From: Chthonomonadaceae bacterium
Lineage (GTDB): Bacteria > Armatimonadota > Chthonomonadetes > Chthonomonadales > Chthonomonadaceae
NCBI GenBank assembly: GCA_027450145.1
Contig: DAIDKH010000010.1
Coordinates: 1-64,000, forward strand
Direction of reading: 5' to 3'
DNA: 64,000 bases
The notes beneath the pieces were generated by a model. The model saw only the letters and a program-made list of their open reading frames with translations, was not told the DNA's origin and did no database searches. Shown here one piece after another: positions 24,376 to 29,301 of this stretch (the first letter of the stretch is position 1; each line of letters starts with the position of its first letter). Made by a program: the position numbers and the translations under genes.

Positions 24376-24480
24376 GGGCTCGCACGACTAGCACAAAAGA
24401 TCCCTAAAAAGGGAGCCCAATCCGGCAGGATGCCGGGTATCGGGCACGTAAGTGTCCAAGGGCATTTCACGGAGGAGACC
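24376..24480 (+). promoter_or_regulatory. Structured flagellin mRNA leader with CsrA-like hairpin
   Basis: The leader before flagellin has several hairpins. GGGCTC (24376-24381) can pair with GAGCCC (24413-24418), in competition with TCCC/GGGA at 24401-24414. A perfect stem CCGGCA/TGCCGG with loop GGA occupies 24422-24436, and GGGCAC/GTGTCC occupies 24442-24457. The GGA triloop in the context CAGGATG matches the core CsrA recognition motif, and a second GGA lies in the ribosome-binding site at 24471-24476. The two GGA sites are 43 nt apart, recalling the hag leader of Bacillus. CsrA binding is inference. Confidence 0.5.
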
Positions 24481-24487
24481 GACAGCA

Positions 24488-25981
24488 ATGGGATTGTACA
24501 TTAACACTAACGTCACTGCGATGGATGCACTTCGCAACCTGTCTAACATTTCAGGTACTGTCGCCGGTGACATTCAGAAACTATCTAGCGGCCTGGCCAT
24601 TAACTCTGCAGCGGATAACCCCTCGGGCCTTATCATCTCGGAGAATTTGAAGGCGCAGATAAACGGACTAAACCAAGCTGTTGCAAACAGCCAGGATGCT
24701 AACAACCTTATCAAAACTGCCGACGGCGCCCTTTCATCGGTCAGTGGACTGCTGGATACCATCCGGCAGCTGGCGGTGCACGCTGCCAACACCGGTGTAA
24801 ACGATCAGGTTGCCATTCAGGCCGATCAGCAGCAGATCAATTCGGCTGTTGGAAGTATTGAGCGAATCGCTGAGAACACTCAGTTTGGGTCCAAGCATCT
24901 GCTCGATGGAACCTCTGGAATCACCGCATCCATCGTTAACACCAAGGATGTCGCTGGTATTAACATTGGCGGCACGTTCAACAACCTCGCAACTCAAACG
25001 GGCACACTCAGCATGCAGGTTAACAACGTCGCCACTCGGGCTATCTCCATTGGGAACGTGACCTACGCGTCGGTTAATGCCAGTTTGGCAACTGCGAACG
25101 GCACCAACGTTAATAACAACGGCGGTACCATTGTGATCAACGGCCAAACGGTAAAAGTCGCAGCGTCCGATACGGTACAAACTGTACTTAACGACATCAA
25201 CAATCTGTCGAGCAGTACGGGCGTTTCTGCACAGTTCAGCTCGGGGAACGGCTCCGGCGTCATCGTGCTAACACAGCAGACCTACGGCGCCAACTTCAAG
25301 ATCAACGAGAATGAGAGCAGCGCTCTTATTAATGGAACTGCAGGTACGCTGGTCGCCGGCCAGAATGCAACGGTAACAGTTACTGCTTATGCACTGCTTA
25401 ACGGTGTTGTCACTACAACGGTGTCAACATTCGTCGGTGGAAGAAGCACCAGCGACAGCGGTCTACTCGCCTCGGATACGCTTGGCAACTCAATACTCCT
25501 TACTGAGGGAGCACTTACAGATGCGACTGGCTCTACCGTCGCGATTGCAAGCGTAACAGCAGGAAGCCTGCAGTTTCAGGTAGGCGCCAACGCTGGCCAG
25601 GTGGTAAATGCGAACCTGGGCAACATTCGCACCACGAACCTCGGAACCACTGCGGTCGCGGGACTGAACCTGTCGAATATCGATGTTACTACAGCAACCG
25701 GTGCATCCAATGCGATCCTGGTAACAGACAATGCCATTCAGCAAATCTCCCAACTTCGTGCAGGTTTGGGCGCATTTGAAGCTGAGACATTGAACCCAAC
25801 CATTCAGTACCTTGGCATTGGCGCTGAAAACCTTTCGGCCTCCCAAAGCCAAATCGCCGATACAAACGTTGCGGCGACAGTCGTAGACCTTACCAAGTCG
25901 CAGATCATTGAGCAGGCAGCCACTTCTGTGCTGGCCCAAGCCAACACAGAACCGCAGAATGTTCTGAAGCTAATTCCGTAA
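24488..25981 (+). CDS. fliC: Flagellin
   Basis: Filament subunit of the flagellum, 497 aa. The N-terminal D0/D1 region (residues 1-140) is canonical (INTNVTAMDALRNLSNISG, KLSSGLAINSAADNPSGLIIS, NLIKTADGALSSVSGLLDTIRQLAVHAANTG). The C-terminal D0/D1 (about 410-497) ends with SQSQIADTNVAATVVDLTKSQIIEQAATSVLAQAN. The variable middle includes a flagellin-IN-like repeat (TIVINGQTVKVAASDTVQTVLNDIN). ATG 24488 is chosen because GGAGGAG lies 11 bases upstream and flagellins begin with this motif; an in-frame start at 24452 would add 12 unrelated residues. It is followed by its own terminator and then by FliD, FliS and a FliT-position gene. Confidence 0.96.
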   Translation: MGLYINTNVTAMDALRNLSNISGTVAGDIQKLSSGLAINSAADNPSGLIISENLKAQINGLNQAVANSQDANNLIKTADGALSSVSGLLDTIRQLAVHAANTGVNDQVAIQADQQQINSAVGSIERIAENTQFGSKHLLDGTSGITASIVNTKDVAGINIGGTFNNLATQTGTLSMQVNNVATRAISIGNVTYASVNASLATANGTNVNNNGGTIVINGQTVKVAASDTVQTVLNDINNLSSSTGVSAQFSSGNGSGVIVLTQQTYGANFKINENESSALINGTAGTLVAGQNATVTVTAYALLNGVVTTTVSTFVGGRSTSDSGLLASDTLGNSILLTEGALTDATGSTVAIASVTAGSLQFQVGANAGQVVNANLGNIRTTNLGTTAVAGLNLSNIDVTTATGASNAILVTDNAIQQISQLRAGLGAFEAETLNPTIQYLGIGAENLSASQSQIADTNVAATVVDLTKSQIIEQAATSVLAQANTEPQNVLKLIP

Positions 25982-25995
25982 CCCGGTAGCACGTT

Positions 25996-26029
25996 AGCCG
26001 ACTACAGGACAAAAATTCTGTAGTCGGCT
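25996..26029 (+). terminator. Flagellin gene terminator
   Basis: A 12-bp perfect stem (25996-26007 with 26018-26029) is followed by TATATTTTT, 15 bp after the flagellin stop. It would allow flagellin to be expressed far more strongly than the downstream cap gene. Confidence 0.92.
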
Positions 26030-26164: not shown

Positions 26165-28729
26165 ATGGTTAGTGGAACATCGGGAACTTCATCTACTGGC
26201 ACTTCAAGCAGCGCGAGTACAACAACTGTGCCAGGTATTGGCAACGGGCTTAATGGTACCTACGGAGTGTTAGGACAACAGGCCAGCAATCCAATATCGT
26301 TCTCAGGACTAGCTAGCGGTATTAACACATCACAGATTATTCAGGAGATGTTGACGATAGACCGCCTGCCAGAGCAACCACTGGTTGCTGACCAGCAACT
26401 CGCACAAAACAAGATGAATGCGTACAATGCACTCAGCGCACAGCTGCTGGGTCTTCAGGCTACAGTGTTCCCACTAAACGGATTACGGTCCTTCGACCTC
26501 GTGACGGCAACGACCGCCAATCCTGCAGTTGCCACAGTCACTGCTCAAACAGGAGCTCAGACAGGTACACACACGCTATCCGTAAGCCAGTTGGCAACTG
26601 CACAGCTTGTGAGTGCGGCGCCACAGTCTAGCCAAACAGCACCGCTTGGCATCACCGGGGCGTTTCTCATTAACGGCAAGACCGTGAACGTCACGGCGTC
26701 TGACAGCCTTCAGACACTGGCCTCCAACATAAATGCAGTGCAAGGTGGTGTCACAGCATCCATCCTATCCCCCAGCGCTAACCAGTACTACCTCACCTTG
26801 GGCAGTAACAACTCAGGTGTACAGGGGACCATGAGCCTTGCCGATTCTGGCAGCAGTACCGTCCTTTCACAGCTTGGTATCACGGGCACAACGTCCAGCA
26901 TTAGCCATGTGTTGACCGGTACCGGCGGTGGCGCAGGATCGGATCTCTTCTCGGACAGTGCCACGCCCGTAAATACGTTATTGGGCCAGCAAACTGCCGC
27001 TGCTGGCACAGTTACAATTAATCTTACCGGTGGACAATCAGCCAGCGTAAACATTAACCTTAACCAGTCTCTTACCGATATCGCCACTACGATTAACTCG
27101 GCGTTCGGTAGCTCCGTGGCGAACGTTGTAACTGTCAACAATCCAATCACCAATACAAATGAACAGCAGCTACAGATTACTGGAGCATCCGGCTTTACTG
27201 ATAGCAATAATGTTCTGGCCGATCTGGGATTGTACCAGGCAAACATTGCGACAGGACGAACGCTAACACAGGCGCAGGATGCCAAATTCACGCTAGATGG
27301 TATTGCTGCAACACGCGCAACAAACAGCTTCTCCGATGCAATATCGGGCGTTACGATAAACCTGCTTCAAGACACAACGAGTTCAACAACCGGTACCGCG
27401 CCTACAACCACTTTCACAGTTGCGCCAGATACCAAGACCATTCAGTCAAACATCGACGCGTTTGCTAAAGCATACAATTCGACGATTGACTTAATGAATA
27501 ACTATACACAATTCAATACTCAAAATAGTCAAACCGGCGCTCTATTTGGCGACTCGCTGACCGAGTCGATACAGAACCAGATGGGTAACCTGGCAAGCGG
27601 CCAAATTGCAGGCTTACCTAATAACCTATCCGCACTATCACAAGCTGGTATCACATTAGACCAGTACGGCCACCTCGTGGTTGACGACACCGCCCTAGGG
27701 AAAGCCCTAAGCAGCAATCTACAAGGCGTTGCGAACCTGTTTCAGGCAAACGGACAGGCCAGCGACTCCAACGTCCAGTTCGTAAGTAGCACAGCCCAAT
27801 CGCAGCCCAGTTCCGCTGCCGGGTACGCGGTGCAAATTACATCCCCCGCTACCCAAGCGAGTTACACCACCGCTACGGCGCAAACATCGCCCACTACAGC
27901 AGCGGAGTCGTTAACATTTCAAGGGGCTCTATTCGGCACGGCAGATATCGCCCCGGGAGGCCAGGGTCCGCTCAGCGGTCCGTCGATTAACATCCCCGTG
28001 GGCAGTACCGCAGCGGATATCGTGTCGCTTATAAACTCTAATACCGCTGTTAGCTCGCAGTTATCCGCTTCGCTAGACTCCACCGGGCACCTAAAACTTA
28101 CTTCTAAGTTATATGGCTCTGCTGCGTCATTCCAAGTCGTCTCTAGTGCGGCAGCGTCAACCAACACCAGTGGAATAGGCAATGTAGTCCTTGCAGTGAC
28201 TGGTCAGGATGTACAGGGAACCATCAACGGAGAGCCAGCAACCGGCAACGGCCAGTACCTTACGGGTTCCATGCAGGGTGCCAATGGCACGGCAAACGGG
28301 CAAGCGCTCGGTCTAGAGCTCCGTGTTACGGCCACTCAGCCTGGCTCCTATGGTAACGTGGTTTATACAAGTGGTGTCGCCAATCAGCTCAACAACATGA
28401 TCACCAACTTGACTGACCCATCCGTTGGCCTTATCACTGTTGCTACCCAGAATCTGCAGACGCAGTACAACAACGACCAGACAAACATTAATCAAATCGA
28501 GGCGAACATCACACTGGAACAGCAGACATTGCAGCTGCAGTTCACTGCAATGGAGCAGGCAATCTCTACCCTGCAGGCTAATAGCGCCGGCTTGGCGGCA
28601 CTAACAAGTGCAGGATCCGCAACGGCAAGCGCAGGAAGTGCAGCAAGCGCTGCAGGTGCAAGCAGCACCGCAAGCGGTGGCACTTCTAGCAGCACGTCCT
28701 CCAGCTCAGGTACACCACCCGGCGGCTAA
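26165..28729 (+). CDS. fliD: Flagellar filament capping protein FliD (hook-associated protein 2)
   Basis: The cap that polymerises exported flagellin at the filament tip. The 854-aa product is longer than most FliD proteins (about 450-700). The FliD N-domain begins after a Ser/Thr/Gly-rich leader of about 45 residues with SFSGLASGINTSQIIQEMLTIDRLPEQPL. Flagellin-IN-like repeats follow (INGKTVNVTASDSLQTLASNINA near 180, and another near 300). The C-terminal domain shows DLMNNYTQFNTQNSQTGALFGDSLTESI and a coiled-coil end (NNDQTNINQIEANITLEQQTLQLQFTAMEQAIS). About 55 residues of Ala/Ser/Gly repeats follow the coiled coil. GGGGGA precedes ATG 26165. Confidence 0.94.
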   Translation: MVSGTSGTSSTGTSSSASTTTVPGIGNGLNGTYGVLGQQASNPISFSGLASGINTSQIIQEMLTIDRLPEQPLVADQQLAQNKMNAYNALSAQLLGLQATVFPLNGLRSFDLVTATTANPAVATVTAQTGAQTGTHTLSVSQLATAQLVSAAPQSSQTAPLGITGAFLINGKTVNVTASDSLQTLASNINAVQGGVTASILSPSANQYYLTLGSNNSGVQGTMSLADSGSSTVLSQLGITGTTSSISHVLTGTGGGAGSDLFSDSATPVNTLLGQQTAAAGTVTINLTGGQSASVNINLNQSLTDIATTINSAFGSSVANVVTVNNPITNTNEQQLQITGASGFTDSNNVLADLGLYQANIATGRTLTQAQDAKFTLDGIAATRATNSFSDAISGVTINLLQDTTSSTTGTAPTTTFTVAPDTKTIQSNIDAFAKAYNSTIDLMNNYTQFNTQNSQTGALFGDSLTESIQNQMGNLASGQIAGLPNNLSALSQAGITLDQYGHLVVDDTALGKALSSNLQGVANLFQANGQASDSNVQFVSSTAQSQPSSAAGYAVQITSPATQASYTTATAQTSPTTAAESLTFQGALFGTADIAPGGQGPLSGPSINIPVGSTAADIVSLINSNTAVSSQLSASLDSTGHLKLTSKLYGSAASFQVVSSAAASTNTSGIGNVVLAVTGQDVQGTINGEPATGNGQYLTGSMQGANGTANGQALGLELRVTATQPGSYGNVVYTSGVANQLNNMITNLTDPSVGLITVATQNLQTQYNNDQTNINQIEANITLEQQTLQLQFTAMEQAISTLQANSAGLAALTSAGSATASAGSAASAAGASSTASGGTSSSTSSSSGTPPGG

Positions 28730-28818: not shown

Positions 28819-29301
28819 ATGAACCGACCCGATATGCTTGCGGGACGCGAACGTTCTGGCAGAAGTGCCGGCGGGCGCAACATGAAATACTTACGAGCGA
28901 AGGTGGAAACTGCAACCCCCACTCAGCTTGTCGTGATGCTCTATGATGGTGCAGTGAGGTTCTGTTCCTTAGCAATAGAAGCCATGGAACTGCACCAATA
29001 TGAGGACCAGAATAACAATATAAAACGTGCGGAAGACATCGTTTGTGAGCTTATGGGTTCACTCAACCAGGAAGCAGGCGGTGAGGTTGCCGCAAACCTG
29101 CTTCGCATCTATACATATTTGTACCAGGAGTTGGTACAGGCCAACCTAAATGACGATCTCGACGCACTCAAGCGCGTTCTTACCCATCTTGAAGCATTGC
29201 GCGAGAGTTGGGTTGAACTTGACCGGCAGGCACGGGCAGGAACAGTCGCTGGCACTCCCACCACCGCTACAACCCAAAGACTGGGAGATTTCAATGCGTG
29301 A
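28819..29301 (+). CDS. fliS: Flagellin export chaperone FliS
   Basis: Cytosolic chaperone that binds the flagellin C-terminus and prevents early polymerisation. The 160-aa frame contains the FliS core (KVETATPTQLVVMLYDGAVRFCSLAIEAMELHQYEDQNNNIKRAEDIVCELMGSLN). The family-conserved YLYQELVQAN segment follows, then a short Thr-rich tail. An internal ATG at 28882 (MKYLRAKVET) would give a product of 139 aa, nearer the usual 125-140; ATG 28819 has AGGGAG about 13 bases upstream, so both are possible. The 3' end overlaps the next gene by 8 bp, indicating translational coupling. Confidence 0.92.
   Translation: MNRPDMLAGRERSGRSAGGRNMKYLRAKVETATPTQLVVMLYDGAVRFCSLAIEAMELHQYEDQNNNIKRAEDIVCELMGSLNQEAGGEVAANLLRIYTYLYQELVQANLNDDLDALKRVLTHLEALRESWVELDRQARAGTVAGTPTTATTQRLGDFNA

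Follow-up and report, generated by a model that had tools for sequence, protein, structure and literature searches.

A very probable CsrA operator on a flagellin mRNA in the phylum Armatimonadota

Bacillus, Clostridioides and Campylobacter are the organisms in which the control of flagellin synthesis by CsrA and FliW has received most study. According to the available parts of the sources, the hag flagellin mRNA of Bacillus subtilis possesses two CsrA sites, one of which lies over the Shine-Dalgarno sequence, and both csrA and fliW are present in this organism (PMC7652899, PMC6529632). The flaA mRNA of Campylobacter jejuni (SL1, SL2) likewise has two GGA sites, of which the first is in a hairpin loop and one covers the ribosome-binding site, and the available parts of the paper describe compensatory changes among relatives, a leader of 45 nt, a spacing of 21 nt and the location of both sites in stem-loops (PMC4894983). 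Two further systems are described in the accessible text of PMC7652899: the csrA leader of Escherichia coli, which has a site over the Shine-Dalgarno sequence and belongs to an mRNA that CsrA represses, and the CsrB-type RNAs with their CAGGA(U/A/C)G repeats.

The flagellin leader analysed here is located in a DNA stretch of 64,000 nucleotides, further called the window, from a Chthonomonadaceae genome (Armatimonadota, Chthonomonadales; code G000). Compared with the published description of B. subtilis hag, the organism belongs to another phylum, its csrA and fliW genes are not on the same contig, and a spacer hairpin and an outer helix are predicted between the sites. Whereas the sites of C. 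jejuni flaA are 21 nt apart, a distance of 43 nt that includes a spacer hairpin separates those of the window, where the site at the Shine-Dalgarno sequence has only weak structure. The loop motif CAGGAUG is the same as in the CsrB-type repeats, but it occurs here as a single mRNA site and not in a multi-repeat sponge RNA. The E. coli csrA leader has four sites, whereas in Armatimonadota csrA one hairpin, the sole site sought, was found, with an ANGGAG hexaloop on a GCC/GGC stem. Operators of this kind are thus already known from Bacillus hag and Campylobacter flaA; the phylum, the spacer architecture and the csrA hairpin look new. A literature search that mostly covered papers outside subscription yielded, among the papers listed, no report of csrA or flagellin regulation in Armatimonadota.

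The flagellin leader and the partner genes

The elements of the leader and the flagellin gene are given below in window coordinates, with the basis of each assignment in brackets.

24401..24414, plus strand: P0, a small hairpin UCCCU-AAAA-AGGGA on the 5' side of the leader core (MFE fold)
24415..24418, plus strand: P1 5' strand GCCC, outer helix of the predicted three-way junction (fold and 11 leaders)
24422..24436, extending to 24420-24438, plus strand: P2, the upstream CsrA-type site CCGGC-AGGAU-GCCGG (sequence, fold and relatives)
24442..24457, plus strand: P3, the spacer hairpin GGGCAC-GUAA-GUGUCC (fold and relatives)
24460..24463, plus strand: P1 3' strand GGGC (P1 alignment)
24467..24476, plus strand: second CsrA-type site TCACGGAGGA, as RNA UCACGGAGGA, overlapping the Shine-Dalgarno sequence (comparison of leaders)
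24488..25981, plus strand: flagellin gene of 497 aa with ATG at 24488 (Pfam Flagellin_N and Flagellin_C)

An earlier sequence-only reading had described the upstream site as a perfect hairpin with a GGA triloop. The hairpin stands, with CCGGC at 24422-24426 and GCCGG at 24432-24436 forming five pairs, or seven when the AT/GT extension is included, but the triloop had to be given up. The inner A-U can pair in the window, but in relatives any of the four bases may follow GGA, and because of this variation a 5-nt loop AGGAN, which is AGGAT at 24427-24431, is the better description of the conserved form. The second GGA, correctly placed by that reading in the ribosome-binding site at 43 nt from the first, is at 24471-24473 within TCACGGAGGA, the loop GGA being at 24428-24430. 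Folding of the 93-nt leader gave z = -2.97, with 1 of 200 shuffles equally good, and in the predicted fold GCCC and GGGC are paired around P2 and P3, which yields a three-way junction. None of 4227 Rfam families matched the leader, even with E allowed up to 5; the searched 2.5 kb contained two matches below threshold, both outside the leader. By eye, several relatives carry hairpins of other sequence at a place similar to that of P0.

Downstream of the flagellin gene, a FliD-like gene (ORF reading) is present at 26165 and fliS (Pfam FliS) at 28819. A strong terminator-like hairpin with 14 pairs and a T-rich tail (25996-26029) is situated directly 3' of the flagellin gene. Using a loose pattern, a sigma-28-like motif was detected in 11 of 110 flagellin upstream regions and not in the window. 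An GGTAATNNTAC-type element was seen upstream of 17 of the 110 flagellins, e.g. L181, L188, L195, L196 and G054b (loose pattern, no chance estimate), and some of these matches fall within the sigma-28-like motif.

As the sequence-only reading had stated, the window contains neither csrA nor fliW. Its advice to look elsewhere in the genome led to one copy of each, on separate contigs: csrA on G000:C108 (89.3 bits, cut-off 27) and fliW on G000:C112 (130.7 bits, cut-off 25), the latter behind an ORF that we read as flgL-like. The CsrA protein has 75 aa, and the best alignment of its residues 2-63 is to 5dmb_D, the CsrA chain of a FliW-CsrA complex; the best solved relative of FliW is 5dmb_A. The alignment indicates that CsrA has retained L4, R44 and N55 (numbering of the G000 protein), the last of which is presumably part of the FliW-contact region. 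L4 and R44 are RNA-binding residues of CsrA according to the accessible text of PMC7652899, and an N55D mutant was used for a CsrA dimer with one FliW site (available parts of PMC6529632). Among 61 Armatimonadota genomes, a flagellin match (E up to 0.001, some of them weak, e.g. G016) was obtained in 35, csrA in 38 and fliW in 30.

Conservation of the two sites in the phylum

A set of 136 flagellin leaders from the phylum genomes and from records was reduced to 110 by dropping 26 near-duplicates. The G005:C143 flagellin, fragments without N-terminus, weak FlgL-like hits and G003b, of which the start is masked and unreadable, were left out. Four leaders (G003c, G010c, G012a, G015b) had entered the set via a strict motif pattern, which biases the counts, and all counts concerned were repeated without them. 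Positions -150 to -20 were scanned for hairpins with GGA at the centre of a 5-nt loop or at positions 3-5 of a 6-nt loop, and with four or more stem pairs, two or more of them G-C.

Such a hairpin was present in 61 of the 110 leaders (59 of 106 without the four motif-selected ones), against a mean of 4.7 (sd 2.1, maximum 11) in 300 dinucleotide shuffles. When all 64 trinucleotides were counted, GGA ranked first in 5-nt loops, with 42 leaders and GAA next with 8, as well as in 6-nt loops, with 20 leaders and AAA next with 7; omission of the motif-selected leaders changed the GGA counts to 40 and 20. The stem was examined in 52 distinct 5-nt-loop hairpins, selected on the three inner pairs and represented by the longest stem where a leader had several. 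Pairs 4 and 5 were formed in 40 and 36 of these, compared to 22.3 and 19.3 with permuted partners (p 0.0005 each, the floor). Pairing above the permutation level and the predominance of GGA thus show a covarying stem around a constant loop. The conservation and covariation that the sequence-only reading had called for are thus found in a majority of leaders, not in all.

A 4-pair GGA hairpin is lacking in 49 of the 110 leaders, including those with a GGGGG Shine-Dalgarno sequence and all five of the MDFS-type flagellins, and G008, G041, G049, G054 and G055, in which csrA is present, also have some leaders without it. In the flagellins L147-L149, L151-L155, L157, L160 and L170, the GGGGG Shine-Dalgarno sequence closely follows a CCGATAA promoter-like motif and there is no double site; several of the GGGGG flagellins come from Fimbriimonadales records. 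The leaders with an ANGGAN hexaloop (L144, L158, L159, L161, L162, L164, L166, L169, L171, L187) appear by eye to have it enclosed in a longer outer stem, the sequence of which changes, e.g. GACGCGC/GCGCGTC and GGACAC/GTGTCC.

The second site is conserved by its context. A GGAGG Shine-Dalgarno sequence occurs in 87 of the 110 leaders, and in 83 of these 87 it is part of CANGGAGG (79 of 83 without the motif-selected leaders), a sequence that fits the CsrA motif CANGGANG named in the accessible part of PMC4894983. The four exceptions are the MDFS-type G002b and G010a, the csrA-less G052, and G040, which has UUAUGGAGG. As a control within the own genome, mechanically called and uncurated ORFs of at least 100 aa were taken from 464 kb (the window and twenty 20-kb stretches); CANGGAGG preceded 4 of the 80 ORFs with GGAGG, and an upstream GGA hairpin none of them. 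The Shine-Dalgarno site gives little sign of a hairpin of its own beyond two to three pairs. A full hairpin at this site was rejected, as pairs beyond the first two or three lack consistent support, and the MFE hairpin CGG-AGGAGA-CCG over the Shine-Dalgarno sequence, seen in the genus of the window, was not adopted.

The occurrence of the sites was also compared with that of csrA. The 30 csrA-containing genomes contribute 63 leaders, of which 42 have the hairpin, 53 have CANGGAGG and 41 have both; at least one leader with both features is present in 27 of these genomes, the exceptions being G031, G040 and G012, the hairpin of which has 3 pairs. Without the motif-selected leaders the numbers are 59 leaders with 40, 49 and 39, respectively, and 26 of 29 genomes, G003, G031 and G040 being the ones without. 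A flagellin match with neither csrA nor fliW was found in G044, G052, G053 and G057. None of the eight leaders fetched from the four csrA-less genomes has CANGGAGG; one has a weak 4-pair GGA hairpin, far upstream, and one (L260) has CAAGGAGA. The contrast is a consistent trend rather than proof, because the groups are small and related. From the sequences compared, both sites, their conservation, the accompanying genes and, apart from that weak distant hairpin, the absence of the sites from the csrA-less genomes examined can be read directly.

As to specificity, the strict pattern, GCAGGANGC followed after 8 to 38 nt by TCANGGAGGA, gave 28 matches in the 61 genomes. Flagellin leaders account for 23 of these (two by likeness at contig ends), and one further match is a probable flagellin leader in G003, where a masked stretch precedes a flagellin frame; of the remaining four, two fall within coding frames, one is undecided and one precedes a gene that we read as aroB-like, in the csrA-less G052. 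A covariance model of short leaders, for which the alignment took 16 of 21, had 17 flagellin leaders and the masked G003 stretch in its top 18 places, 13 of the 18 being in the training set; background matches score as high as 25 to 29 bits. Among the matches listed for model R1, the long leader of the window itself is absent. Because the R1 genome search is noisy, with 25.3 bits in the csrA-less G056, no further CsrA targets are claimed. The best R1 match away from flagellin, G027:C24 with 28.8 bits, is a lead only. In the window's own genome, an AGGAG-loop hairpin (G000:C44:1087-1137, L296; R1 22.9 bits) is located just 5' of a gene that we read as lytic transglycosylase-like; it is possibly a further CsrA target, or due to chance.

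The genome has four flagellin genes, and the one in the window and the two on contig C30 carry both sites. The fourth, of MDFS type on C60 (G000:C60:18255, L301), has neither, and thus one filament protein may escape CsrA control. Together with its homologues in G001, G002, G003 and G010, this type has the hairpin in 0 of 5 cases and CANGGAGG in 2 of 5.

Site spacing and the csrA leader

A site pair could be assigned in 58 leaders. The loop GGA and the Shine-Dalgarno GGA are 20 to 26 nt apart in 24 of these, which have linkers of 11 to 18 nt, and 30 to 69 nt apart in the other 34; in Chthonomonadales the distance is 22 to 64 nt. CsrA is reported to bridge 10-63 nt in the accessible text of PMC7652899. 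The 43 nt of the window fall inside this range, and only L178 (69 nt) among the 58 leaders exceeds it, as does G028a (64 nt).

A spacer hairpin is folded by all 19 long Chthonomonadales leaders (38 to 64 nt), with a mean of -11.4 kcal/mol as compared to -7.3 (sd 0.56) for shuffled spacers, none of 300 shuffles being as low. The length outside the spacer hairpin is 13 to 18 nt in 12 of these 19 (shuffles: mean 4.5, at most 11), a range that was picked after seeing the data and in leaders that are related. When the 33 leaders of the phylum with more than 30 nt are taken together, their spacers are again more stable than shuffles (-7.6 against -5.6, lowest of 100 shuffles -6.9), but the unpaired length varies widely, with a mean of 14.4 (sd 5.6) against 11.2 in shuffles. 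Some spacers outside Chthonomonadales fold poorly, such as that of L169 (0 kcal/mol). In the same-genus leaders G001a and G002a the P3 loops are GAAA and GCGA, of the same GNRA type as GUAA in the window, and P3 has a mismatch at its third pair. An alignment of 11 of 12 long leaders, which are related, has P1 as a 5-pair helix with 98.2% of the cells paired; both partners have changed in two of the pairs, and two others are invariant. The window has four of the pairs, the fifth being A-A, and G003c lacks P1. These data support, but do not prove, that the spacer is folded away in long leaders. In Chthonomonadales, sites far apart in sequence may be tolerated because P3, and here also P1, folds the extra RNA away, so that about 13 to 18 nt of linker remain outside the hairpin.

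A related element was found at csrA itself. From 39 csrA leaders fetched (L198-L255), 38 were scored; G059 could not be parsed and by eye is without CANGGAGG, and a weak second match in G055 was left out. The Shine-Dalgarno sequence of csrA lies inside an exact GCC-ANGGAG-GGC hairpin in 23 of the 38, and CANGGAGG is present in 25; in G000 the hairpin region is at L001 1450-1510 (G000:C108). In Chthonomonadales, each of the 18 genomes whose flagellin match is strong has the exact hairpin in csrA, the second csrA of G027 being without it, and it also occurs in G016, an incomplete genome with fliW. It is missing in G007, G011 (73% complete) and G014, where csrA is present but flagellin and fliW gave no match, and the csrA leader of G014 retains a G-U version. 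Outside Chthonomonadales, G033, G041, G047 and G060 have the exact hairpin, and most other genomes lack it. By eye, CCANGGANGG variants occur in the csrA leaders of G014, G027 (second copy), G032, G054 and G055. The position of the csrA Shine-Dalgarno sequence in an ANGGAG hexaloop suggests that CsrA probably also limits itself.

Alternative explanations and proposed mechanism

The leader folds well overall and P0 and P3 are hairpins without GGA, which would suit a hairpin that serves generally to stabilise the 5' end of an abundant mRNA or to attenuate it, with a loop that has no partner. The loop would then not be fixed, yet 42 leaders have GGA at its centre, the next trinucleotide reaching 8, while the stem changes; the Shine-Dalgarno context is fixed too, and CANGGAGG is missing from the eight csrA-less leaders, so that this explanation is considered highly unlikely. 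Even less probable is a role of the upstream GGA as a standby or second Shine-Dalgarno sequence instead of a CsrA site. AGGA does look like part of a Shine-Dalgarno sequence and is exposed in a loop, but ribosome pairing leaves the conserved CA directly before NGGAGG unexplained, and such a hairpin precedes none of the 80 other GGAGG ORFs in the 464 kb.

Titration deserves somewhat more weight, although we regard it as improbable that the sites bind CsrA mainly as a sponge and that control of flagellin translation is secondary. A sponge function is reported for C. jejuni flaA in the accessible part of PMC4894983, and in this genome both sites are found at three flagellin genes and one site at csrA. 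For titration alone, however, there would be no need to keep the overlap with the Shine-Dalgarno sequence, as is the case in 83 of 87 GGAGG leaders. The window leader is thus very probably a CsrA operator on the flagellin mRNA, with Bacillus-like flagellin control via CsrA and FliW. The suggestion in the sequence-only reading that flagellin translation may be CsrA-controlled gains support from the presence of csrA and fliW, the conserved hairpin and the csrA-less leaders; binding of CsrA, repression, partner switching by FliW, bridging and autoregulation are inferred.

In the proposed mechanism, a CsrA dimer would anchor with one face on the AGGAU loop of P2 and place the second on CACGGAGG over the Shine-Dalgarno sequence, which would keep the 30S ribosome from binding. 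FliW that is free of cytoplasmic flagellin would remove CsrA, so flagellin would be translated during export and repressed upon accumulation. On the csrA mRNA, CsrA would bind the hexaloop with its own Shine-Dalgarno sequence, leading to self-limitation. The chances seem about even that spacer hairpins in Chthonomonadales and, in the family of the window, the three-way junction act as a ruler that holds the anchor hairpin and the Shine-Dalgarno site some 13 to 18 nt apart irrespective of their distance in sequence, and that CsrA in addition represses itself via GCC-ANGGAG-GGC.

For further study of CsrA, the natural leaders of differing spacing form a ready series of variants for the dimer-bridging model, and autoregulation of csrA in a FliW-using lineage is predicted from its hairpin. 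In Armatimonadota both sites occur together with csrA and fliW, and the csrA-less genomes examined have no such double site, which supports the idea that CsrA has long served flagellin homeostasis.
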